Shown here: positions 7,764-20,083 of the stretch, piece by piece
How positions within the stretch are numbered: the stretch's first letter is position 1
How the letters are laid out: every line of letters begins with the position of its first letter
Virus record (IMG/VR): IMGVR_UViG_3300037076_000005
Span: 1 to 20,083 of that record
DNA length: 20,083 nucleotides
Direction: 5' to 3' (one strand)
From: a virus
Notes under the pieces: model-generated
The model's database searches: none
What the model saw: only the letters and a program-made list of their open reading frames with translations
What the model was told of the DNA's origin: nothing
Translations under genes and position numbers: made by a program

Positions 7764-7871
7764 ATGCTGATGTCTGTATTACTGATCGTAATGGCCGTTG
7801 GATTTATCGTAATCGTAATCGCTGCCGTCAGCCTAGCGTCCGTTTTTGCTCACGTTAGAATTAATCGTTAG
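7764..7871 (+). CDS. Putative 35-residue single-span membrane peptide
   Basis: This short ORF is the only credible plus-strand gene. It begins with ATG 8 nt after GGAGG and encodes about 28 uninterrupted hydrophobic or small residues (LMSVLLIVMAVGFIVIVIAA, then VSLASVF) followed by a short basic tail (HVRINR). This suggests one membrane helix with a cytoplasmic basic end. It sits in a 354-nt spacer between the protease and scaffold genes, and its last 4 nt overlap the end of the protease gene tail to tail. A weak candidate promoter, TTGCTA at 7713 and TATTGT at 7737 with 18-nt spacing, lies upstream. Functions such as holin-like or superinfection-exclusion peptide are guesses. At this length the ORF could be fortuitous, though the good ribosome site and continuous hydrophobic run argue for it. 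Confidence 0.45.
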   Translation: MLMSVLLIVMAVGFIVIVIAAVSLASVFAHVRINR

Positions 7872-8695
7872 ATCCCCGCCAACGTCCTACCAGCCGCCGT
7901 CAGGTTCCAACCCATCGCGGCCATTACGCGCATATCTCGCAGAGTCGGCACGCCTGATTGCCCTGTCGTATTCTGATAATCGCAACAGTCGCCAAGTTGG
8001 TTCCAATCCCCATAGTCGCCACCATTGGCAACATGGTTCCAAGCTCCTAAATTTGTGGTTCCGTTATCGTCGCTGAAATATCTAGTGGCCAAATGAGTCT
8101 CGTTACGAGTGGCCGGGGCCGTGAAACTGAATAGTCCTTGAGCGGAAGTAAAGCTATCATTTGTCCATACCCTGCCCATCACCTCGAAAACTTCATGGAC
8201 ATACTCGCCGTACAGGCTGATATGCCCTGCTGCACAACTCCCATCCGTGGACAAATCCCAAGTAGTGCTTGAGCTAAAGCCAACCGAGCCATCGTGAACG
8301 GGATTGGGGCCGTTCAGACCAAGAGCCTGACCTAATGGCGAAGTAGAAGCCATAGAACCAGAACCGTTTGAAAGCGAACTCGGCAACGTGCCCGAAGCAT
8401 ATGTAGAGTTTGCAATCATGGCTGCTTTAACGTCAGCGTAGGTTGGTAAGATAGGGACCACGATACTGCTGCCGCCACCTCCAAGAGCGCCACCTCCAAC
8501 CGTATTATATCCTATGTCGATAACGATGTTGATCGTAGTTGAAAACCACAGCCCCATATCAGTCGTGAATTGATTTCGAACAGTTGTCCATCCAGCCGGA
8601 GCATTGACCCAAGTATTATCCGCATTGACCCACGTTATCTGAAACGTAGGAGAGGCTACAACTGTGCGCCCGAACGATAGCAGTCCGGCGGTCAT
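7868..8695 (-). CDS. Virion-associated zinc-metalloprotease-like protein (NF038122-like)
   Basis: The 275-residue protein resembles the NF038122 family of metalloproteases known from alphaproteobacteria and cyanobacteria. Family-type segments are VHEVFEVMGR at 166-175, where HExxE replaces the common HExxH, then RYFSDDNGTTNLGAWN (205-220), GGDYGDW (225-231) and a terminal DMRVMAAMGW (254-263). H167 and E168 are the expected zinc ligand and catalytic acid; other ligands are not certain. There is no signal peptide, unlike secreted host relatives, so delivery is probably with the virion. Its first residues, TAGLLSFGRTV, match those of the tailspike encoded just upstream. Start and upstream stop overlap as ATGA, so the two are coupled. 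Substrate unknown: host surface protein, or a virion part. Confidence 0.65.
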   Translation of the reverse strand: MTAGLLSFGRTVVASPTFQITWVNADNTWVNAPAGWTTVRNQFTTDMGLWFSTTINIVIDIGYNTVGGGALGGGGSSIVVPILPTYADVKAAMIANSTYASGTLPSSLSNGSGSMASTSPLGQALGLNGPNPVHDGSVGFSSSTTWDLSTDGSCAAGHISLYGEYVHEVFEVMGRVWTNDSFTSAQGLFSFTAPATRNETHLATRYFSDDNGTTNLGAWNHVANGGDYGDWNQLGDCCDYQNTTGQSGVPTLRDMRVMAAMGWNLTAAGRTLAGI

Positions 8696-11355
8696 GGGTT
8701 GCCGGTTTCATTGTAATTCTTATAGGCCAACAGCATCGGCGCACTCGCTACGCCAGTGTTCACTCCCCATTCATTCGGCTCTATCGGACCCCACATTGCT
8801 GTATATCCCCACTGAGTTGTCATTGCGTAGAGTGATGCGTGAGTTCCGCCGTTGGCTTTGAACGCCTGTAAGCTACTGTCGTTTGTTGGGCCTGATTCAT
8901 TTAACAAATCCTGCGCGTAGTTACTCTGGAAATACCCAAAGAATAGATTTTGTATATCAAAGCCAGTCAGCGTGACACCCGAGTATGGATTTCCAGTTAT
9001 TGTAAAGTTTCCTGCGTTTCCCTGCAATCCACCTTCGTACTGTATCCAAGGGACGACTTGAGAGCCGTTCCCAGTATTACCATTCGCACAATGCCCCCAA
9101 ACCGGGAAATTCTGTTGCGTGTATGAGTAAAGATTTTCAGTACTTCCTACGTCAAATGTATCGCGCCACAGAGTATCAAATGTTGCTAAAGCAGTAGCTT
9201 GTAAACCGCCGTAACAATATTGCCAGATCATTTGTGCTGAAAGGCCGGTTGGAACAAATCCATTCTTTGCTCCTGGTGGGCTTGTATAGGACGAAGTGGC
9301 GATGCTGTCCGCGACAGAAATTGGCGGCGCGGCAGTGTTGCATCCTGACGCCAAATGACGGCCCTGAATAGCCGGATCGTTTGAGTTCAAGAAGCGATTG
9401 AGAGTTCCTGCGCCTGCCTGATGAGCAAGTGTGCAATGACATTGATTGAGTTTCCCAGCATAAACAGTCTTTACATTCGACATGACCTCATAAAATTTCC
9501 AGCCATACCAAAACCAACTGTAATAACCCCCGGCTGAGATTGGATAAGATGGAAGTGCCCCCGCCGTCCAGCCGTGTAACCCGTTCCTTGCGTATAATGC
9601 CGCTTTAGTGGTTGCGTACCCTGTCTCATACCAAAATCCGTTCCATACCTCGTTACTCAATTCGTAATAAGCCACGAGATTTGAATTTAGATTGTCCCTG
9701 ATATACGTCGCCATCTGCGTGACATAATCATCGTCCGCCATGTGCGGAATGCCAAACCACCCATTACAATTCAACTTATTGCAGAGCGCAACTTGCTGCT
9801 CTAGCGGCCACCCATACTGACATGAGCTGTAAGGTTGGGCTAAGATTAAATCAAATTCGGCATCGTAGGTGAATATCCATAATTGATTAGTTTGGGTATT
9901 AACATATGACGGAGACATTGCAGAAGTTGCAGCAAATATAACTTTCTTTGCGGAAAGAGAAGGAGTAGCGAGCGTAAGACGCGGGCAAACTTGACCGCCG
10001 CTCGTGTATACAGGCCATGTCGTGCTATCGCGTGCAATAGTGAAATTGGTACTGTCTATGACCGTTACTTGTGCGCCACCTGAGCCAGCGATGAGATTGT
10101 TTATTGAACATCCTGCGCCGGTAGGACTGCCCGTGAAGTAACTCCACTTCGTTATATCTGAACCTGGATAAACACCAAAATTGCCGCCAGCAATGGAAAT
10201 ATAGACGCCCTGCGGGCCAGCGCCACTTGTTACGCTCACAAGTTCATCGGCGGCATAGGTCGTCCCACTGCCCCATGTGGGAACGGATGTTGGTGGCGTG
10301 CTTAAAATCAATCCTTCTGGAAAATACACATAGTCATTAGTGCTAAGGCCGTGCGCGGTAGCTGTCGTGATTTGACACGGATTGGCGTTGGTGATCGCAG
10401 TCGGCATAGCTGCAATATTTGATGAAGAAATATTTGCAGTGCTTGGCCAATAAGCCTGCACCTGCATCTTGTCGGTCCAGCCGCCTGAGACATACCCAGG
10501 CGGGTCTTGCGGAGCAACTAGGGCGTTTTTTGTCGGCGAAGGAAACTTCCCAACATACCACTGACTATTAAGGGTGTTGCCCCACCAGCTAAAAGTACCG
10601 GACTGTGAACGATTGGACCAAAGGCTTATCGGAGAGTCGATGGTCTGACCCCACTGAATAAATCTAATTATACCGTATCCGCCATAGACGCTGAGAAGCT
10701 GAGGATCAAACATATTTGTCGGAGACGGGGCTCCGAGACTTGTTCTATAAAATTTAATGTCGGAAACAGGAGTAGCAGTAATTTGAAGTCTTATATTAAC
10801 CTGAAATCCTGTTGTTATTTTCGACCAATAACAACCGTTATCCGTCACAGGGTCTTTGTTGGTATTATTGAGATTGCAAAAATAATACTTTCCGTCGCTG
10901 CCTATAACGTAGTTGGCTATTAGCCCGAAGTCAGTAGTATACGCAGTAGCAGAACTCCATGCTGTATAATTGGCGCTGTCTGGAACAAGTGTAATTGTAT
11001 GCGGATTGGTGCCACTCGCTGAACCTGTGAAACCAGGATATAAAAATCCAAGGGTGACAGTCCCCGCCCCAGTCCAAGACAAGGTGTATGACTCTCCAGG
11101 GGGAGGCATGTAAACCGCAAAAACAGTTTGAAAATGCTCCCCTGCATCTGGAATACTTGTCGGGTATCCCGTCGAGTCCAGATACGTATAGCCATCACGC
11201 GATGTATTGGAATATGCGAAGGGCCGGTCACTTGCCATAAACATATTGACGAATGGGAAGGCATTACCGCGTTGTAGATTGTAGGTATTGACCTGCAAGT
11301 TCTTCTGCGAGGCAGAGACAGACCTACCAAATGATAAAAGCCCCGCAGTCGTCAT
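8692..11355 (-). CDS. Tailspike-like protein with clan GH-A glycosidase domain and carbohydrate-binding inserts
   Basis: The 887-residue protein is the largest here. After an N-terminal peptide (TAGLLSFGR, 3-11), a beta domain starts at about 30 (FVNMFMASDRPFAY, then GYPTSIPDAG). The barrel-type catalytic part includes IIRFIQWGQTIDSP (229-242), GWPLEQQVALCNKL, GIPHMADDDYV (535-545) and YYELSNEVWNGF (563-574). N568-E569 is the usual acid/base pair of GH-A enzymes, and E774 in WIQYEGGLQG fits the nucleophile. Two stretches resemble CBM5/12-type sugar-binding modules: 133-178 (WSSATAY to CYW) and 361-404 (WGSGTTY to ITKW). The second lies within a fold like the E1-FCCH repeats of phage fibres (318-457, TAHGLSTNDYVYF). 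It probably cuts or binds a surface polysaccharide during adsorption. The substrate is unknown; cellulose-like or chitin-like glycans are only suggestions. Confidence 0.72.
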   Translation of the reverse strand: MTTAGLLSFGRSVSASQKNLQVNTYNLQRGNAFPFVNMFMASDRPFAYSNTSRDGYTYLDSTGYPTSIPDAGEHFQTVFAVYMPPPGESYTLSWTGAGTVTLGFLYPGFTGSASGTNPHTITLVPDSANYTAWSSATAYTTDFGLIANYVIGSDGKYYFCNLNNTNKDPVTDNGCYWSKITTGFQVNIRLQITATPVSDIKFYRTSLGAPSPTNMFDPQLLSVYGGYGIIRFIQWGQTIDSPISLWSNRSQSGTFSWWGNTLNSQWYVGKFPSPTKNALVAPQDPPGYVSGGWTDKMQVQAYWPSTANISSSNIAAMPTAITNANPCQITTATAHGLSTNDYVYFPEGLILSTPPTSVPTWGSGTTYAADELVSVTSGAGPQGVYISIAGGNFGVYPGSDITKWSYFTGSPTGAGCSINNLIAGSGGAQVTVIDSTNFTIARDSTTWPVYTSGGQVCPRLTLATPSLSAKKVIFAATSAMSPSYVNTQTNQLWIFTYDAEFDLILAQPYSSCQYGWPLEQQVALCNKLNCNGWFGIPHMADDDYVTQMATYIRDNLNSNLVAYYELSNEVWNGFWYETGYATTKAALYARNGLHGWTAGALPSYPISAGGYYSWFWYGWKFYEVMSNVKTVYAGKLNQCHCTLAHQAGAGTLNRFLNSNDPAIQGRHLASGCNTAAPPISVADSIATSSYTSPPGAKNGFVPTGLSAQMIWQYCYGGLQATALATFDTLWRDTFDVGSTENLYSYTQQNFPVWGHCANGNTGNGSQVVPWIQYEGGLQGNAGNFTITGNPYSGVTLTGFDIQNLFFGYFQSNYAQDLLNESGPTNDSSLQAFKANGGTHASLYAMTTQWGYTAMWGPIEPNEWGVNTGVASAPMLLAYKNYNETGNP

Positions 11356-13501: not shown

Positions 13502-14047
13502 TTAGAATCCTAGGATGTAGTAGGTTGGAGCGGAGCTGCCGACCGAGGCAACATGCAGTTGCAGATAGTCGGTGCCGTTGTGTAGGAGAAAATGATCGGT
13601 GCCGTTGTGTAGGAGAAGGTCTGGGCCAGCATGCGAGCCGCCTCCTCCAAGTGTTATTTCAGTTCCAGTTTCATCAACCGGACAAAACGCGATTATTCCG
13701 CGCTGTTGAAGTTGTTTGACCGTTAGAATTCCGCCTTGTGCAACGCCCGTTGCGTCAACCGGACACATACTAATAAGACCGCGTTGGCGAATTTGATCTG
13801 CCGTATCTCCACTGACTGGATCAACACCGGATTCTGTTATTTGACAAAATGTTATTAGGCCGCGAGAAACTAGAGAGCTTTCAGAGAGTGTATTTGAAAC
13901 GCCTAAACTATCGACTTCGCAAATTGAAGACATTCCACGCGCAGCAATATCCTTGATTGTAAGCGTTCCGTTAACAGCGACCCCGTTTGCATCAACTACA
14001 CAATAGGCTCTGATCCCGCGAGACCGCAGAGCGTCAAGGTCGCTCAT
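13502..14047 (-). CDS. Five-fold Cys repeat phage protein, function unknown
   Basis: The 181 residues contain five tandem units of about 27 residues with the strict pattern RG-x4-C-x5-G. R/G pairs lie at 10-11, 37-38, 62-63, 89-90 and 116-117; cysteines at 16, 43, 68, 95 and 122; and glycines at 22, 49, 74, 101 and 128. Example units are RGIRAYCVVDANGV and RGIIAFCPVDETGT. A Gly-rich hinge (133-141) follows, then two copies of HNGTD (147-151 and 156-160) in a strand-rich tail ending TYYILGF. The gene lies 6 nt after the portal gene and starts the appendage insert. A solenoid of short beta-alpha units, perhaps an adaptor that holds fibres to the capsid or portal, is a guess. No family name comes to mind. 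Confidence 0.6.
   Translation of the reverse strand: MSDLDALRSRGIRAYCVVDANGVAVNGTLTIKDIAARGMSSICEVDSLGVSNTLSESSLVSRGLITFCQITESGVDPVSGDTADQIRQRGLISMCPVDATGVAQGGILTVKQLQQRGIIAFCPVDETGTEITLGGGGSHAGPDLLLHNGTDHFLLHNGTDYLQLHVASVGSSAPTYYILGF
13569..13617. repeat. Exact 22-nt direct repeat in the repeat-protein gene
   Basis: TCGGTGCCGTTGTGTAGGAG plus AA occurs at 13569-13590 and again at 13596-13617. The 27-nt period keeps the frame and encodes the doubled LLHNGTD peptide near the C-terminus. Complete identity at the DNA level, unlike the diverged 27-residue units upstream, points to a recent duplication. Confidence 0.85.
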
Positions 14048-14053
14048 GTTCTA

Positions 14054-16015
14054 TTATCTCGCCAACGCGCCTTCGGGAATCTGACCGGGCATTTGCAATG
14101 GCAATTGCGGCTGCATAGGTGGAACACCACCAGTAGGATTCATATCAGGTGGGACCGGACCAAAACCTTGGGGTGGCATAGGCGGTGAGATCTGCTGTCC
14201 CTGCGGCTGTGGATTTGACTGTTGTCCAGTCTCACGTCCTAAAGTCTGTGCGTCGATATGTGCGTCATGCAGTTGCTTGGCAGCCGAGGCAAAATCTTTG
14301 AACGTCTTGGCCTTGGTATTCTGCACTTTCGCTGCTTCTCCAGCCAGGCCGATCTGCTTAGCCTGTACCTGCATAGGATCTGGCGGCTGTTCGGAAGCCT
14401 GCTTGAACTTATTCTTAGCAGCCTGTGGCAACGGGGAAGTCTCGATCAATATGCCAAGTGCTGCTGACGCTTCTGCAGGGCTTAGCATTTGAGCAATAGA
14501 CGGAATGATCTGCTGGAGCGTATCGAATACGTCCTGCATCATCGTTACAGTGTCCGGCCCTTCATCAATGATAATATCTACATCTAATGAACCGATTGCA
14601 TTGACTAATGCCGGTTGTCCGTACTGGTCTGTAGATAGCCCGTTGATCTGAATGAACTGAGCCAATCCGTCATCGTCGGTAACTCTAATCCAACGCTCGG
14701 AGGTCCAATATCTTTGAACGATATTCCAGATCGAGCGATAGACCCGTATTTTCCAAGCCTTATGCGCCAAGATATACGGGCCTAGTTCAGCAATGCCCGC
14801 CTGTTGCAATAGTGAAATTGCCTTACCGGATGAACTCTCTAAACCATTCCCAACCAATGCAGGATTAGGACCGAAATTATCAATGTCGTTATTAGCCTCT
14901 TTCATCATCTCCAACTGTCCGGCAAAATCGGACTTCATATCTACAAGTTCAAAATTCTTGCCGGGATTCTTTTCAATATACCCATCAGGTCTAGCTACTT
15001 GAAGCCTCGCCGCCTCAACATCATCAACCGCCCCCTTGTCGGCAATTACCTGCTTTGAATTGAGAATGTGGAGCGACTTTGAATTGCGGTGATTAACTTC
15101 GTCCTGCGCTCCCTTGAAATTCCTGACAAAACCGTACCTGTCCCCGTCATGATCGACAGATGCAGCGAACATCAGGAACTTGCAGAAGCTCTTGCCTCGC
15201 TCATCAACGTAAGGCGATATGCCTTCCATCAAGATCGCGTTGCCGATATAAAGCGCCCAGCACCATTTTCCCTTGTGAATATACCAATGGTCGATCAACC
15301 TGACTTTCTTGGATGATGTATTAACCCAAGTGATTTCACGGTCACTGTTCGGCGTCAGATCAGTCCCGGATTCAATCAGTCCGTCGATCTGTTCTGCCTT
15401 ATCGGGGACCAATTCTTTTGCCTGATCGACATCAACCCACTTGGACACGCCCATAAACCGCGCATCGGTAAATCCATCATCATAGGAACGGGGATCATAG
15501 AAAAACGTATCCGGGTAAACGATATGCAGATCAATGTCAGGATCGCCATGATCGCCAGTGGCTAGATCAAGTTCAATCCCACCTATGCCATCAATCGAAG
15601 CCATTCGAGCACAGCGCGGAGATTTTGATTTCCAATCAACATGATCGAGCGCATAGCGCATGACCGCTGTAGCCACGTCCGCACCTTGTTCCTGTTTAGG
15701 TGTGCGGGGATATGCTTTTGGGTCCTGTCTGAGACGTTCGACCAATCCAATAACGGCGTTGATCTTGCGGGCAATCTTGTTCTTGGTGATGACGGGTTGC
15801 TTGCGTTTCTTTAGTACCCTTATTTCCTTATCGGTCCATTGAGAGCCGTGATAATAGCGCCTGGATTCCTTCTGTTCCGCAATCTCATTCATCTTTACGC
15901 CAAGATAATCGTAGTATTGGCGTCGTAGTATTCCGATCTCGTAGTATTCAGGCTTATCATCTGATGGTGCTGGCGAGTCATTAGACCCTGCCTGCATGTC
16001 GTTGTAAGAGGCCAT
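14054..16015 (-). CDS. Portal protein (P22-type)
   Basis: The 653-residue protein is in the size range of P22 portal (725). Typical P22-portal segments include YEIGILRRQYYDYLGV (about 25-40), YYHGSQWTDKEIRVLKKRKQ with PVITKNKIARKINAVIGLV, a KAYPRTPKQEQGADVA region, and the wing segment IVYPDTFFYDPRSYDDG with DARFMGVSKW. The stem/crown region includes FVRNFKGAQDEVNHRNSKSL and NGLESSSGKAISLLQQAG. The last 55 residues are Pro/Gln/Met/Gly-rich and probably disordered. It forms the dodecameric ring at the packaging vertex, docking the terminase and then the gp4-like connector. Start and terminase stop overlap as TGATG, with AAGGA 7 nt upstream. High confidence. Confidence 0.9.
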   Translation of the reverse strand: MASYNDMQAGSNDSPAPSDDKPEYYEIGILRRQYYDYLGVKMNEIAEQKESRRYYHGSQWTDKEIRVLKKRKQPVITKNKIARKINAVIGLVERLRQDPKAYPRTPKQEQGADVATAVMRYALDHVDWKSKSPRCARMASIDGIGGIELDLATGDHGDPDIDLHIVYPDTFFYDPRSYDDGFTDARFMGVSKWVDVDQAKELVPDKAEQIDGLIESGTDLTPNSDREITWVNTSSKKVRLIDHWYIHKGKWCWALYIGNAILMEGISPYVDERGKSFCKFLMFAASVDHDGDRYGFVRNFKGAQDEVNHRNSKSLHILNSKQVIADKGAVDDVEAARLQVARPDGYIEKNPGKNFELVDMKSDFAGQLEMMKEANNDIDNFGPNPALVGNGLESSSGKAISLLQQAGIAELGPYILAHKAWKIRVYRSIWNIVQRYWTSERWIRVTDDDGLAQFIQINGLSTDQYGQPALVNAIGSLDVDIIIDEGPDTVTMMQDVFDTLQQIIPSIAQMLSPAEASAALGILIETSPLPQAAKNKFKQASEQPPDPMQVQAKQIGLAGEAAKVQNTKAKTFKDFASAAKQLHDAHIDAQTLGRETGQQSNPQPQGQQISPPMPPQGFGPVPPDMNPTGGVPPMQPQLPLQMPGQIPEGALAR

Positions 16016-17484
16016 CAGTATTCCTTAAAACTATCGCTCTCACGATCCATCGACTTATAGCCGCTGATGTTAGTCGGCTTCTCAGGCTTGCTCGGATTGC
16101 GACCGCTAACCATGCGATCAAGCAACTGCCCAACTAAACCTAACGCATCAACCTGATCGTCATGTCGGCCAGCCGGGAAGCTAAGAAGCTCAGCCCTGAA
16201 ATCCGCAAACCAAGAAGCCTGCGTAGGAACATAAAGACCGTCGATTGACATCCGGCCTCGGATCGACTGAGCGCGCACAGCCTTATCCCCGCGCGTAGGG
16301 AATTGTTCTCGATTGACGTAAGCGGCTTTGCGTGACGCTTCCTGTTCAATGAAAGGACCTAAGCCTGCACTTATTTGCCCAGTTTCCTCGGCCCAGTCTT
16401 GCGGCTTCCATTGCTTGACCAACCTGCACCATTCCGAAATCCATTTATCGGATGATGTTTGCCCGCGCCATAGATCGAGCAGATAGCATCGGCCTTCAGG
16501 ATCAAGTCCGATAACAACATGAACGGTATAGTCGCCTCCGTCCGAAGTGACGGCGTAATCTGAAGCTCCATAGACGGATAAGGTATTTTGATCGGGGGCT
16601 GTGACATAGGGCCTTAGCCATTCTGCTTTGAAGTAATCACCTGATTCTGGTGCGGGTCGCTGTTGATATAGGGCAGACCAGTTACGAGCCGTTTGCGTAG
16701 CTTTTTCGTGCCGTAAGAAATTTCCGTATCCGTATTCGTCGTCCCACAAATACTCGCCCCGCTCTCGACCTAGAGCGTCGTTGTCCTCGGCCTCGGCCGG
16801 TAGTGATAGAATGTTCCATGTGTCACCACCTTTAGCCATCTCACCTAAGAGACGACCAGCCAAATCATCCTCATGCCATCGGGTTTGAATAACGATCTGC
16901 CGACCACCAGGCTTCATGCGAGTTGACAGATCGGACTTGTACCAATCCCAAATACGCTCACGCACTAAATCGGAATCAGCGTCCTCACGAGAACGTATAG
17001 GATCATCAATGATAGCAAGATCGGCCCGGAAGCCCGCAATGCCAACCCCAACGCCCGCAGCGTAATACTCACCACCCTGCTTGAGCGCCCAACGGCCTGC
17101 CGCTTGACTATCGCCGGATAGGCTAAGCCCAAGCGTGTTGCCATGCTCAATGACCAGATTGCGGACCTTCCGGCCCCATTTCTCGGCTAGTTCGCTAGTG
17201 TGCGATGCAGCAATAACAGCACATTCAGGTCTGGACGCCAGAAACCACGGTGCAAACAGGATCGAGCCATATGTTGATTTGGCCGAGCCAGGTGGCATGA
17301 ATACAGCCAGCCTTGGAACATCACCACGAGCTACAGCCTCTAGCTTGGCTATCAACAGTTGATGATGCTTGGCAGGTTCAAATCCGCAATGACGACACCA
17401 ATCAGTGAAATTTCGTCTGATCGTCCTGCGTTTCAGCAGTTCTATCGCTGCGTCCTGACGCGATATTTGCAAGCTCATCGTCAC
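16015..17484 (-). CDS. terL: Terminase large subunit (packaging ATPase and nuclease)
   Basis: The 489-residue protein has both terminase domains. The ATPase part shows a P-loop of the PPGSAKST form at 64-71, a Walker B LAIIDDP at 156-162 and a motif III-like QTRWHEDDLAGRL at 200-212. The RNase H-like nuclease part shows GASDYAVTSDGGDYT (306-320; D309 a likely metal ligand) and RHDDQVDALG (440-449; D442/D443/D446). It cuts the concatemer and drives DNA into the prohead through the portal. The chosen start is GTG 17484; ATG 17478, two codons in, is an equal candidate. The 5' end overlaps the small terminase candidate by about 80 nt, and the portal gene follows with an overlapping start. Confidence 0.93.
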   Translation of the reverse strand: MTMSLQISRQDAAIELLKRRTIRRNFTDWCRHCGFEPAKHHQLLIAKLEAVARGDVPRLAVFMPPGSAKSTYGSILFAPWFLASRPECAVIAASHTSELAEKWGRKVRNLVIEHGNTLGLSLSGDSQAAGRWALKQGGEYYAAGVGVGIAGFRADLAIIDDPIRSREDADSDLVRERIWDWYKSDLSTRMKPGGRQIVIQTRWHEDDLAGRLLGEMAKGGDTWNILSLPAEAEDNDALGRERGEYLWDDEYGYGNFLRHEKATQTARNWSALYQQRPAPESGDYFKAEWLRPYVTAPDQNTLSVYGASDYAVTSDGGDYTVHVVIGLDPEGRCYLLDLWRGQTSSDKWISEWCRLVKQWKPQDWAEETGQISAGLGPFIEQEASRKAAYVNREQFPTRGDKAVRAQSIRGRMSIDGLYVPTQASWFADFRAELLSFPAGRHDDQVDALGLVGQLLDRMVSGRNPSKPEKPTNISGYKSMDRESDSFKEY

Positions 17485-17752
17485 CCAATTCCGCCGCGTT
17501 CACCAACGTAATTGTGGCTTCAACCTCTTTCGGCAATAGCGAAGCGGCAACCTTCACAAACTCGGCTGGCTTACTCCAAGCCGCAGCTAACAGTGCAGGC
17601 CGTCCAAACGCTTGCCATGCCTCATAGAAATCCCGAAGGAACACATCATTGATCTTATGGCGTGAACCTTTTGGTCGGCCCTTCGGGTTTCCAGATTGAC
17701 CAGGTTTGAATGGCGTTAGCTGTTTTGGTACTGTTTTATTAGTTGAAGACAT
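17402..17752 (-). CDS. DUF5681-type protein, probable terminase small subunit
   Basis: The 116-residue protein opens with FKPGQSGNPKGRPKGSRHK at residues 14-32, the signature of DUF5681, which often lies next to large terminase genes. The stretch is basic with a GRPKG core, suited to DNA contact. A helical part follows (INDVFLRDFYEAWQAFGRPA, then WSKPAEFVKVAASLLPKEVE), and the tail is acidic and polar. A small terminase would recognise the packaging site and hand DNA to TerL. The last 83 nt overlap the terL 5' end in another frame. There is no strong ribosome site (AGGAT at 7 nt). The role rests on the domain and its place; no other gene here fits the small subunit better. Confidence 0.65.
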   Translation of the reverse strand: MSSTNKTVPKQLTPFKPGQSGNPKGRPKGSRHKINDVFLRDFYEAWQAFGRPALLAAAWSKPAEFVKVAASLLPKEVEATITLVNAAELGDDELANIASGRSDRTAETQDDQTKFH

Positions 17753-18354: not shown

Positions 18355-18918
18355 TCATAGGGTGGTTAGGTCACAAGTCAAATTTTGTGTCTGTCCTTGT
18401 GCATAACCCCAACGAATAGCTAATCGTTCAAGTCCCCACCTAAAATGCTTTCCAATGGTTAGAACGGCCCGCGTGGTGTAGAAATCCCGTCTTACCGCAG
18501 CTTCCGATATTGTCATGCGCCTTCCTAAAATGTCCCGCATTAAACCAGAGGCAAGCGGGCCAAGTTCCTTATCCGCCCCGGCTAATGCCTTAAATGCTTT
18601 CATTTGCGCGTCAGATAGCATTTCTGTAACTCTGCCACCATCAACAGCCTCCTTCGTTGGGTCTATGGCTCGTATTGATCCTATTTCCGATTGTTCATGG
18701 TAGCGTTGCCATTGGCGTCCGGCTTCGTATTGAGCTTGGTCTATTTGATTTCGTGAGAGCATTCCAGCAAGCGGATCGTCGCGGACGGAGCGCAGAACTT
18801 CTATTTTCTCCCCGATATTTGAAAAAGGGTCCGCAACAATAGCTATCGAAACTACCGACCCTGTTGGTAAGTCGATTGCGCGCCGGTCATGGACTTTCTC
18901 AGTTTGTCGCTTGGCCAT
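18355..18918 (-). CDS. DUF6456-like phage regulatory protein (tentative)
   Basis: The protein has 187 residues. The middle (DPLAGMLSRNQIDQAQYEAG, then RQWQRYHEQSEIG) and the end (AVLTIGKHFRWGLERLAIRW) resemble the pattern of DUF6456 proteins, which are common in alphaproteobacteria and their phages. The C-terminal half (LSDAQMKAFKALAGADKELG, then MRDILGRRMTISEAA) looks like a helical, possibly DNA-binding, fold. The start overlaps the upstream stop as TAATG, so it is translated with the two replication genes. In this place it may be a late-gene or copy-control regulator. The family assignment is from pattern only and could be wrong. Confidence 0.5.
   Translation of the reverse strand: MAKRQTEKVHDRRAIDLPTGSVVSIAIVADPFSNIGEKIEVLRSVRDDPLAGMLSRNQIDQAQYEAGRQWQRYHEQSEIGSIRAIDPTKEAVDGGRVTEMLSDAQMKAFKALAGADKELGPLASGLMRDILGRRMTISEAAVRRDFYTTRAVLTIGKHFRWGLERLAIRWGYAQGQTQNLTCDLTTL
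18398..18406 (-). promoter_or_regulatory. DnaA-box match
   Basis: The minus strand reads TTATGCACA, a full match to the TTATNCACA DnaA-box consensus, inside the 3' part of the DUF6456-like gene. The 11-nt string TGTGCATAACC is shared with a second match at 20020. About 0.6 such matches are expected by chance in 20 kb. Confidence 0.35.
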
Positions 18919-19556
18919 TAGCGTAGTTGCTCCCCAGTGATTTTAAACCATTTTCCACCGTCCTTATTTGGGTGAGGTTCAAGCCCCTTGGCACTTTTGA
19001 AATCCTCAGCGTAAGCGTTCCATTCGTCCTCTTTTTGCTTTTCAATGTAGATTAGGTTTTTGCCCATCGCGACTTGCCCGTGCCTTGGAGGCGTCCACCT
19101 CTTCCCATTATCTTTCCCCGATAGAGATTTTTCCTTATCTATCTTTGATGGTTCAGTAGTAATGGTTCTAAGTGATGGTTCTGTACCGCACAGCTGCGGT
19201 TCCTTAACTCGATTTTGCGGTTCCTTAAGTTCGATTTGCGGTGTCTTGATTTTATTCCCATGATTTTCAATGTTTGATACCGCATCTTGCGGCTTCTTAA
19301 TCTGAGGCATCAATAGGCAGTAGATATGGCTGCTGCGGCGGCGTGATTTGTGGGTCAAGAAGCCTTCGGTTTCTAGCTCCTTGAGGCGACGTTGCACGGA
19401 ATCAACGGATTGTTCGGTCTGTCGAGCAATAAGCTGCTGAGAAGGCCAGCAAACGCCACGTTCATCGGCATAATTTGCAATTGTGATAAGAACTAATTTT
19501 GCGCTGGGGCTGCCAGTTCTGACCGATAACGCCCATGAAATAGCTTGGACGCTCAT
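18918..19556 (-). CDS. Winged-helix replication initiator-like protein
   Basis: The 212-residue protein starts with a helix-turn-helix/winged-helix domain at 1-85 of the HTH_36 type seen in phage replication initiators: SAKLVLITIANYADERGVCW, PSQQLIARQTEQSVDSVQRR, LKELETEGFLTHKSRRRSSH. A polar linker at 86-140 with repeated K-x-PQ (KTPQIEL, KEPQNRV, KEPQLCG) follows, then a C-terminal part ending in GGKWFKITGEQLR. By analogy with lambda O, the N-terminal domain may bind the repeats and the C-terminus may recruit a host helicase, but no helicase-loader motif is visible. The linker DNA carries 21-nt iteron-like repeats. It is coupled to the DnaA-IV gene by ATGA and to the next gene by TAATG. Confidence 0.65.
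   Translation of the reverse strand: MSVQAISWALSVRTGSPSAKLVLITIANYADERGVCWPSQQLIARQTEQSVDSVQRRLKELETEGFLTHKSRRRSSHIYCLLMPQIKKPQDAVSNIENHGNKIKTPQIELKEPQNRVKEPQLCGTEPSLRTITTEPSKIDKEKSLSGKDNGKRWTPPRHGQVAMGKNLIYIEKQKEDEWNAYAEDFKSAKGLEPHPNKDGGKWFKITGEQLR
19147..19308. repeat. Iteron-like repeat array inside the initiator gene (candidate origin)
   Basis: TGCGGTTCCTTAA occurs exactly at 19195-19207 and 19216-19228. Diverged copies begin at 19237 (TGCGGTGTCTTGA) and 19288 (TGCGGCTTCTTAA). The spacing of the first three is 21 nt. ATGGTTC occurs three more times at 19148, 19162 and 19175, and one of these is in a different reading frame. ACCGCA/TGCGGT (19185-19200) forms a hairpin with a 4-nt loop. 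An AT-rich stretch follows at 19243-19277. The layout resembles lambda ori within gene O. Confidence 0.55.
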
Positions 19557-20077
19557 TGCTCAGTCACCAGCTCATGCGCCCGGTTGACCCATACCGATAA
19601 ATAATCCGTGGGGTTTAATTCACGGCCCAGCCGGTCAAACAGCCATTGATATTTGCGTATGGAATGAAGGATCGTCGTATGGTCGCGCCCACCTGTGCGC
19701 CGTCCAATATCGGGTAGGCTTCGTGAAGTAAGTAGCTTGCAAAGGACACATGAAATTTGTCTCGGCTCCACAATTTCCGCCGTGCGCCGCGCCGAAAGAA
19801 GATCAATCACCCTAACCTCCCATTTTTTAGCAACCGCGCGCTGAATATCTATTACCCTGACTTCGTAGGATGGGCGGTCTGGTTCCAATTCAATAACTGG
19901 CGCAGGTTCAGCAGATGGCATAAACTCAGCCCGTCTGATTATTTCCAAAATAAAAGGATGAAGACCGGAAATTGGCTTTGGTTGAAAGCTGTGAGTAACT
20001 TTGCGGGATATTTCGCGCCTGTGCATAACCGCCTTAGAGGCTTCTCGTACGTCCTGTGCGGAGTGGCAGTGGTCCAC
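19553..20077 (-). CDS. Stand-alone DnaA domain IV (Bac_DnaA_C) protein
   Basis: The C-terminal half (about 72-143) is DnaA domain IV: IDIQRAVAKKWEVRVIDLLS, then RQISCVLCKLLTSRSLPDIG and the signature GGRDHTTILHSIRK at 129-142, the part of DnaA that reads the DnaA box. There is no AAA+ domain, so this is not DnaA. Proteins of this kind occur in alphaproteobacterial genomes and phages, where they may act at the origin or as regulators. The start is uncertain: GTG 20077 is shown, the frame stays open to 20083, and ATG 20026 (AAGG 5 nt upstream) is a good alternative. A TTATGCACA box spans that ATG. The gene overlaps the initiator start by ATGA. Confidence 0.75.
   Translation of the reverse strand: MDHCHSAQDVREASKAVMHRREISRKVTHSFQPKPISGLHPFILEIIRRAEFMPSAEPAPVIELEPDRPSYEVRVIDIQRAVAKKWEVRVIDLLSARRTAEIVEPRQISCVLCKLLTSRSLPDIGRRTGGRDHTTILHSIRKYQWLFDRLGRELNPTDYLSVWVNRAHELVTEQ
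20020..20028 (-). promoter_or_regulatory. DnaA-box match at the alternative start of the DnaA-IV gene
   Basis: The minus strand reads TTATGCACA, matching TTATNCACA, and contains the ATG of the alternative start at 20026-20024. If real, the encoded domain IV could bind its own gene; this is inference. Confidence 0.35.
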
Positions 20078-20083
20078 CTGGTG

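Follow-up and report, generated by a model that had tools for sequence, protein, structure and literature searches.

The window analysed here is an entire virus record, a linear fragment of 20,083 bases. A gene on its reverse strand (18918-19556) encodes a replication initiator of 212 amino acids composed of a winged helix-turn-helix (wHTH) domain, a disordered linker and a small C-terminal domain. The N-terminal wHTH matched the Pfam family HTH_36 (PF13730) with E = 1.6e-15 and 57 bits, for a cut-off of 25. The protein also matched phrog_1032 (E = 1.9e-28), phrog_391 ('O-like'; 9.5e-21) and phrog_270 (7e-19), and its PHROG annotation is 'replication initiation protein / O-like'. The sequence match of the N-terminal wHTH places it among the HTH_36 phage replication initiators of PHROG 1032/391/270. 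These are families defined by their proteins, and their descriptions as seen include neither an intragenic origin nor the GAACC element described below. The initiator had no match to RepA_N (PF06970) at E<=0.01 and does not group by this measure with the RepA_N plasmid initiators. It also falls outside the lambda O family, as it matches HTH_36 and not Phage_rep_O (PF04492), the family that lambda O itself matches with 5.7e-36.

In the AlphaFold2 model of the initiator, the winged-helix domain (residues 1-81; 19314-19556, reverse strand) had a pLDDT of about 95, with helices at residues 3-11, 17-29, 40-47 and 51-64 and strands at residues 67-71 and 77-81. The wing corresponds to residues 67-81, and the recognition helix, which is of the EQSVDSV type, to residues 51-64 (19365-19406, reverse strand); the latter assignment is based on the model and on the co-occurrence of this helix with the CCGCA...TGCGG iteron. 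The linker, from about residue 85 to 160, was modelled as disordered, and the iteron array sits inside it. A C-terminal mini-domain (residues 161-206; 18939-19076, reverse strand) was modelled with low to moderate confidence (pLDDT 61-72). Searches of PDB sequences with the protein family of the window gave weak generic wHTH matches only, and the same search with lambda O gave no relative. Foldseek likewise returned generic wHTH matches only, none of them at E<=0.001, the initiator structures 4pt7 and 5kbj appearing among them.

Upstream, a gene for a stand-alone DnaA domain IV (Bac_DnaA_C, PF08299, E = 4.5e-23; 19553-20083, reverse strand) overlaps the start of the initiator gene, its own 5' end being open at the edge of the record. 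DnaA_C-like genes were likewise present at a few kb or less from the initiator in several viral relatives, such as L113, L115, L173, L018, L167, L161 and L023, which suggests a recurrent pairing of the two genes. The replication genes of the window have a perfect DnaA box (TTATGCACA) on either side, at 18398-18406 and 20020-20028 (-). We rejected these boxes as a sign of an origin: chance alone should give about 0.6 perfect sites per 20 kb, and among eight relatives that have a DnaA_C gene close by, seven lack such sites in the stretch examined, so that the boxes of the window are probably without meaning. The next gene after the initiator (18355-18918) had no Pfam match and matched only PHROGs of unknown function; no P-like helicase-loader gene was identified beside the initiator. 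Other proteins of the window contain repeated or common sequences. Those encoded by the adjacent genes 8692-11355 and 7868-8695 (-) are otherwise different but have a common N-terminal leader, M-T-(T)-A-G-L-L-S-F-G-R-(S/T)-V-x-A-S, which is possibly a virion-attachment or sorting tag. The protein encoded at 13502-14047 (-) has about four internal repeats of the RGxxxxCxVDxxGV type, of roughly 36 residues each. In another locus, L003, a gene at 1826-2782, which precedes a phage DnaA_C gene, codes for a protein with tandem repeats of the NTGDSNTGHRNTG type.

The DNA of the linker carries a series of short repeats. TGCGG starts at positions 19195, 19216, 19237 and 19288, in steps of 21, 21 and 51 nt, and the copies at 19195 and 19216 are the same over 13 nt (TGCGGTTCCTTAA). 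These TGCGG heads are half-sites of a palindrome, CCGCA-N3/4-TGCGG. Two iterons are full palindromes: iteron a (19280-19292; CCGCA-TCT-TGCGG) and iteron d (19186-19199; CCGCA-CAGC-TGCGG), which are kept in the sister locus L113 as CCGCAATCTGCGG and CCGCAACTGTGCGG, respectively. Both fold as DNA hairpins, with z-scores against shuffled sequences of -3.6 (19280-19292) and -3.8 (19185-19200). Between them, iterons b (19237-19257; TGCGG...) and c (19216-19236; TGCGGTTCCTTAA...) are half-site units with a 21-nt step. Together they make up an in-frame 21-nt duplication; L113 has one such unit against two in the window, and comparison of the sequences indicates that iteron c is likely a duplicate of b. 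The two full palindromes are the only CCGCA-N2-5-TGCGG dyads in the 20-kb window. Under a first-order Markov null with the composition of the gene itself, two such dyads or three copies of ATGGTTC were found in 0 of 2000 simulated stretches of 210 nt, and four TGCGG with a frequency of 0.0005, the dyad pattern having been picked after inspection of the sequence. The gene contains an internal array of palindromic iterons, two full palindromes plus two half-sites, with constraint at the DNA level.

Next to the array lies a second element. ATGGTTC occurs at 19148, 19162 and 19175, the 19162 copy being out of phase with the other two, and only one more copy exists in the rest of the plus strand. 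On the coding strand, these are three copies of GAACCAT in 13- and 14-nt steps (19146-19181, reverse strand), one of them out of frame. They fall within a predicted unwinding region (19100-19180), proposed on nearest-neighbour stability and with a GC content of 36% compared with 47% for the gene. Within this region, 19120-19179 is the weakest 60-bp segment of the window (stability z = 3.1, top 0.1%); an unstable segment beside iterons is a feature of lambda-type origins. An earlier sequence-only reading of this DNA had pointed out four TGCGG repeats, three at 21-nt spacing and two equal over 13 nt, a hairpin at 19185-19200, three ATGGTTC copies, one out of frame, and an AT-rich stretch; we recovered each of these features, and add that the TGCGG sites are halves of a palindrome, a point that it did not make.

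The GAACCAT copies of the window are one case of a wider pattern in homologous initiator genes, GAACCNTCA, found on the coding strand just past the iterons, in steps of 12, 11, 13 or 14 nt. Across the three codon phases, its counts in homologues were 49/6/6, against null means of 5.5/0.5/1.6, and where it lies the G+C content dips locally, by about 13 points over 40 nt. When viral contigs were scanned at the DNA level alone for two copies of GAACCNTCA, 82 distinct instances were retrieved, 56 of them on the same strand as, and downstream of, a wHTH initiator domain; seven were cut by a sequence edge and 19 were elsewhere, several in low-complexity repeats. A scrambled control pattern gave 50 instances, none of them near a wHTH initiator domain. 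Carriers of GAACC copies include hosts or phages of Pseudomonadota (L094, L095 and L096), Verrucomicrobiota (L103, with three copies in three frames) and Actinomycetota (L106, and Arthrobacter phage Renna12 with four copies), as well as a Chloroflexota bin (L109). In a literature search of partial coverage, no origin paper was among the ten of 290 matches listed for the word GAACCATCA, which in one phage paper occurred only inside ribosome-binding-site strings. The GAACC word is constant although the iterons vary, which makes it an unlikely target of the wHTH; its place and low stability suggest the unwinding region. Within the linkers of some gammaproteobacterial phages (L007, L008, L009, L194 and L195), we also observed a shared sequence, AGAACC(A/T)(G/A)TCAC(T/C)CTT...GAACC, whose CACTCTTT part resembles the boxA antitermination element.

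Several characterised replicons offer points of comparison. The iterons of phage lambda are inverted repeats to which O binds as a dimer, and next to them lies an A+T-rich region of 40 bp, which opens (PMC5043065). As in lambda gene O, the candidate origin of the window lies in the initiator gene between the DNA-binding and C-terminal parts, with palindromic iterons and an adjoining unstable region. Unlike in lambda O, the DNA-binding domain is HTH_36 and not Phage_rep_O, the iteron sequence differs, and there is a GAACC element, for which we searched lambda O and found none. The lambda-type comparison made by the sequence-only reading therefore holds for the architecture (wHTH, then iterons, then unstable region, all in the initiator gene) but not for the Pfam family. 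In phage SPP1, oriL sits in the initiator gene 38, inside which are direct repeats bound by gp38 and an AT-rich DUE (PMC6316719). Repeats and weak DNA inside an initiator gene are common to SPP1 and the window, a likeness at the level of published description; SPP1 differs in having another origin, oriR, as well as gp39 and gp40, a loader/helicase pair. In the staphylococcal plasmid pSK41, Rep boxes in the middle of the rep gene are bound by the wHTH N-terminus, and the linker peptide that they encode is dispensable; in pPR9, the N-terminus of Rep is of the pfam13730 (HTH_36) type and was swapped along with the origin region, giving a rep region capable of autonomous replication (PMC5703833). 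pSK41 resembles the window in a wHTH N-terminus with repeats mid-gene, and pPR9 in its HTH_36 N-terminus. Among experimental cases, pPR9 comes closest to supporting an HTH_36 initiator whose origin lies in its own gene. They differ from the window in being Firmicutes plasmids with antisense-RNA control and, in pSK41, in the presence of a RepA_N domain.

Palindromes bound by wHTH domains are typical operators, which speaks for a different function of the array, as an initiator binding site for autoregulation or copy control, with the origin located elsewhere. We consider this improbable: the array is about 250 nt inside the coding sequence, not at a promoter, the DNA after it is highly unstable and carries a second, conserved repeat, and the proven intragenic arrays of lambda, SPP1 and pSK41 are origins (PMC5043065, PMC6316719, PMC5703833).

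An origin in the linker has also to be weighed against the possibility that the repeats merely follow from a repetitive peptide in the linker (KxPQ, EPS), maintained by selection on the protein or created by recent in-frame duplication, as the repetitive peptide and the in-frame 21-nt unit of iterons b and c would allow. We addressed the level at which the linker is constrained using homologues retrieved with a bait made of the window row and three artificial HTH-core variants; all analysed homologues were real database loci. Between the window and its sister L113, whose wHTH is 71% identical, the same codon was used at 20 of the 53 identical residues of the wHTH (38%) but at 24 of the 27 in the linker (89%; Fisher p = 1.2e-5). 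Codon identity in wHTH and linker was 0.47 vs 0.84, 0.48 vs 0.87 and 0.33 vs 0.70 in other divergent sister pairs; most divergent pairs went in the same direction, and very close ones had little contrast between the two regions. Linker codons are, thus, frozen where selection on the peptide should freeze only amino acids. We then compared repeats with a null that kept the peptide and redrew synonymous codons from each gene's own codon counts. Above this null at p<=0.01 were 76 of the 100 nonredundant homologous linkers (22-24 fell short), against 3/86 for wHTH and 2/52 for C-terminal parts as controls, in a set of relatives that are not phylogenetically independent. Pooled out-of-frame direct 8-mer pairs numbered 1436, whereas the null gave 108 at most; for inverted pairs, the figures were 689 and 309. 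Lambda O, a proven intragenic origin, passed the same test (p = 0.002). The window alone was only modestly significant (p = 0.02 for direct repeats) because its 21-nt repeats are in frame, a result that by itself leaves some room for the peptide.

The palindromes of homologues were also read as different peptides. In the kin of the window L015, L094 and L095, CCGCA...TGCGG is translated as PQIA, ADCG, ALLR, PQFA, AICG or IALR, and in L103 one palindrome (GGACAATATGTCC) is read in three frames, as PDNMSS, RTICPP and PGQYVR. Together with the out-of-frame and inverted repeats above the null across the family and with the disorder predicted for the linker, this makes a peptide by-product very unlikely and largely refutes it. 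The comparative sequence evidence from homologues argues strongly that the signal of the linker is in the DNA, not in the peptide. The sequence-only reading had named, as the outcome that would speak against it, homologues keeping the KxPQ peptide but losing the DNA repeat; we saw no such homologue, L113 keeping KPQ/PQLCG with 89-92% identical codons, while in L015, L094 and L095 the DNA palindrome persists and both peptide and frame change.

The iteron sequence was associated with that of the recognition helix. Among 135 nonredundant linkers, CCGCA-N2-5-TGCGG was present in seven of the nine whose helix starts with EQSxD[ST]V (or EMS...) and in three of the 126 others (Fisher 3e-8, an optimistic p-value since the helix pattern was written after part of the sequences had been seen and the nine linkers are related). 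The EQSxD[ST]V subgroup contained 13 sites, for a synonymous-null mean of 1.1 and a maximum of 5. Such a large contrast would be expected of a wHTH whose targets are the palindromes. Terminase genes are close by (16015-17484, and a DUF5681 gene at 17402-17752), but a role of the segment in packaging (pac/cos) or recombination, with its position inside the initiator gene due to chance, is extremely improbable, as the repeat sequence co-varies with the recognition helix of the initiator and not with the terminase, and the array comes after the initiator wHTH in a large, diverse set of loci.

As a whole, these data are very probably best explained if the initiator linker doubles as the phage replication origin, through wHTH binding and melting. 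We read the locus as a probable origin of the lambda-like, intragenic kind, in which the DNA-binding domain is of another type and a conserved repeat marks the predicted unwinding region; the original proposal that the linker is a candidate for the protein's own origin appears to be largely right. The anatomy of the locus, the DNA-level constraint, its recurrence across the family, the helix-iteron association and the low duplex stability were computed directly. GC skew was uninformative, the window being a fragment; in a complete relative, C72C1, the extremes of the skew were not in the initiator gene. By analogy with the characterised systems, we infer initiator binding, dimerisation, melting, helicase loading and origin function, in a mechanism that might operate as follows. 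The full CCGCA-N3/4-TGCGG palindromes would be bound by the N-terminal winged helix, probably as a dimer, and the two intervening half-sites would be bound less tightly. By bending or crowding the DNA at the array, the initiator would favour the melting of the adjacent 60-80 bp of weak DNA containing the GAACCAT repeats. A helicase could then be loaded at this melted GAACC-repeat segment, with the C-terminal part of the initiator recruiting the helicase or its loader.

For the GAACCNTCA repeat (2-4 copies, 11-14 nt), there is about an even chance that it represents a widely conserved element of HTH_36-initiator origins, independent of the replicon-specific iterons, which signals where the DNA unwinds and has a conserved partner that reads it, be it the non-wHTH part of the initiator, a replication protein of the host or the binding of single-stranded DNA as the helicase is loaded. 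The question is then what reads a constant GAACC word in phages and prophages of Pseudomonadota, Actinomycetota, Verrucomicrobiota and possibly Chloroflexota, next to iterons that are all different. For most uncultured phages, we know of no replication origin. If the linkers of HTH_36 initiators are origins, these could be read directly from sequence, each iteron could be matched to the recognition helix that binds it, and it would become possible to predict copy-number or incompatibility groups.
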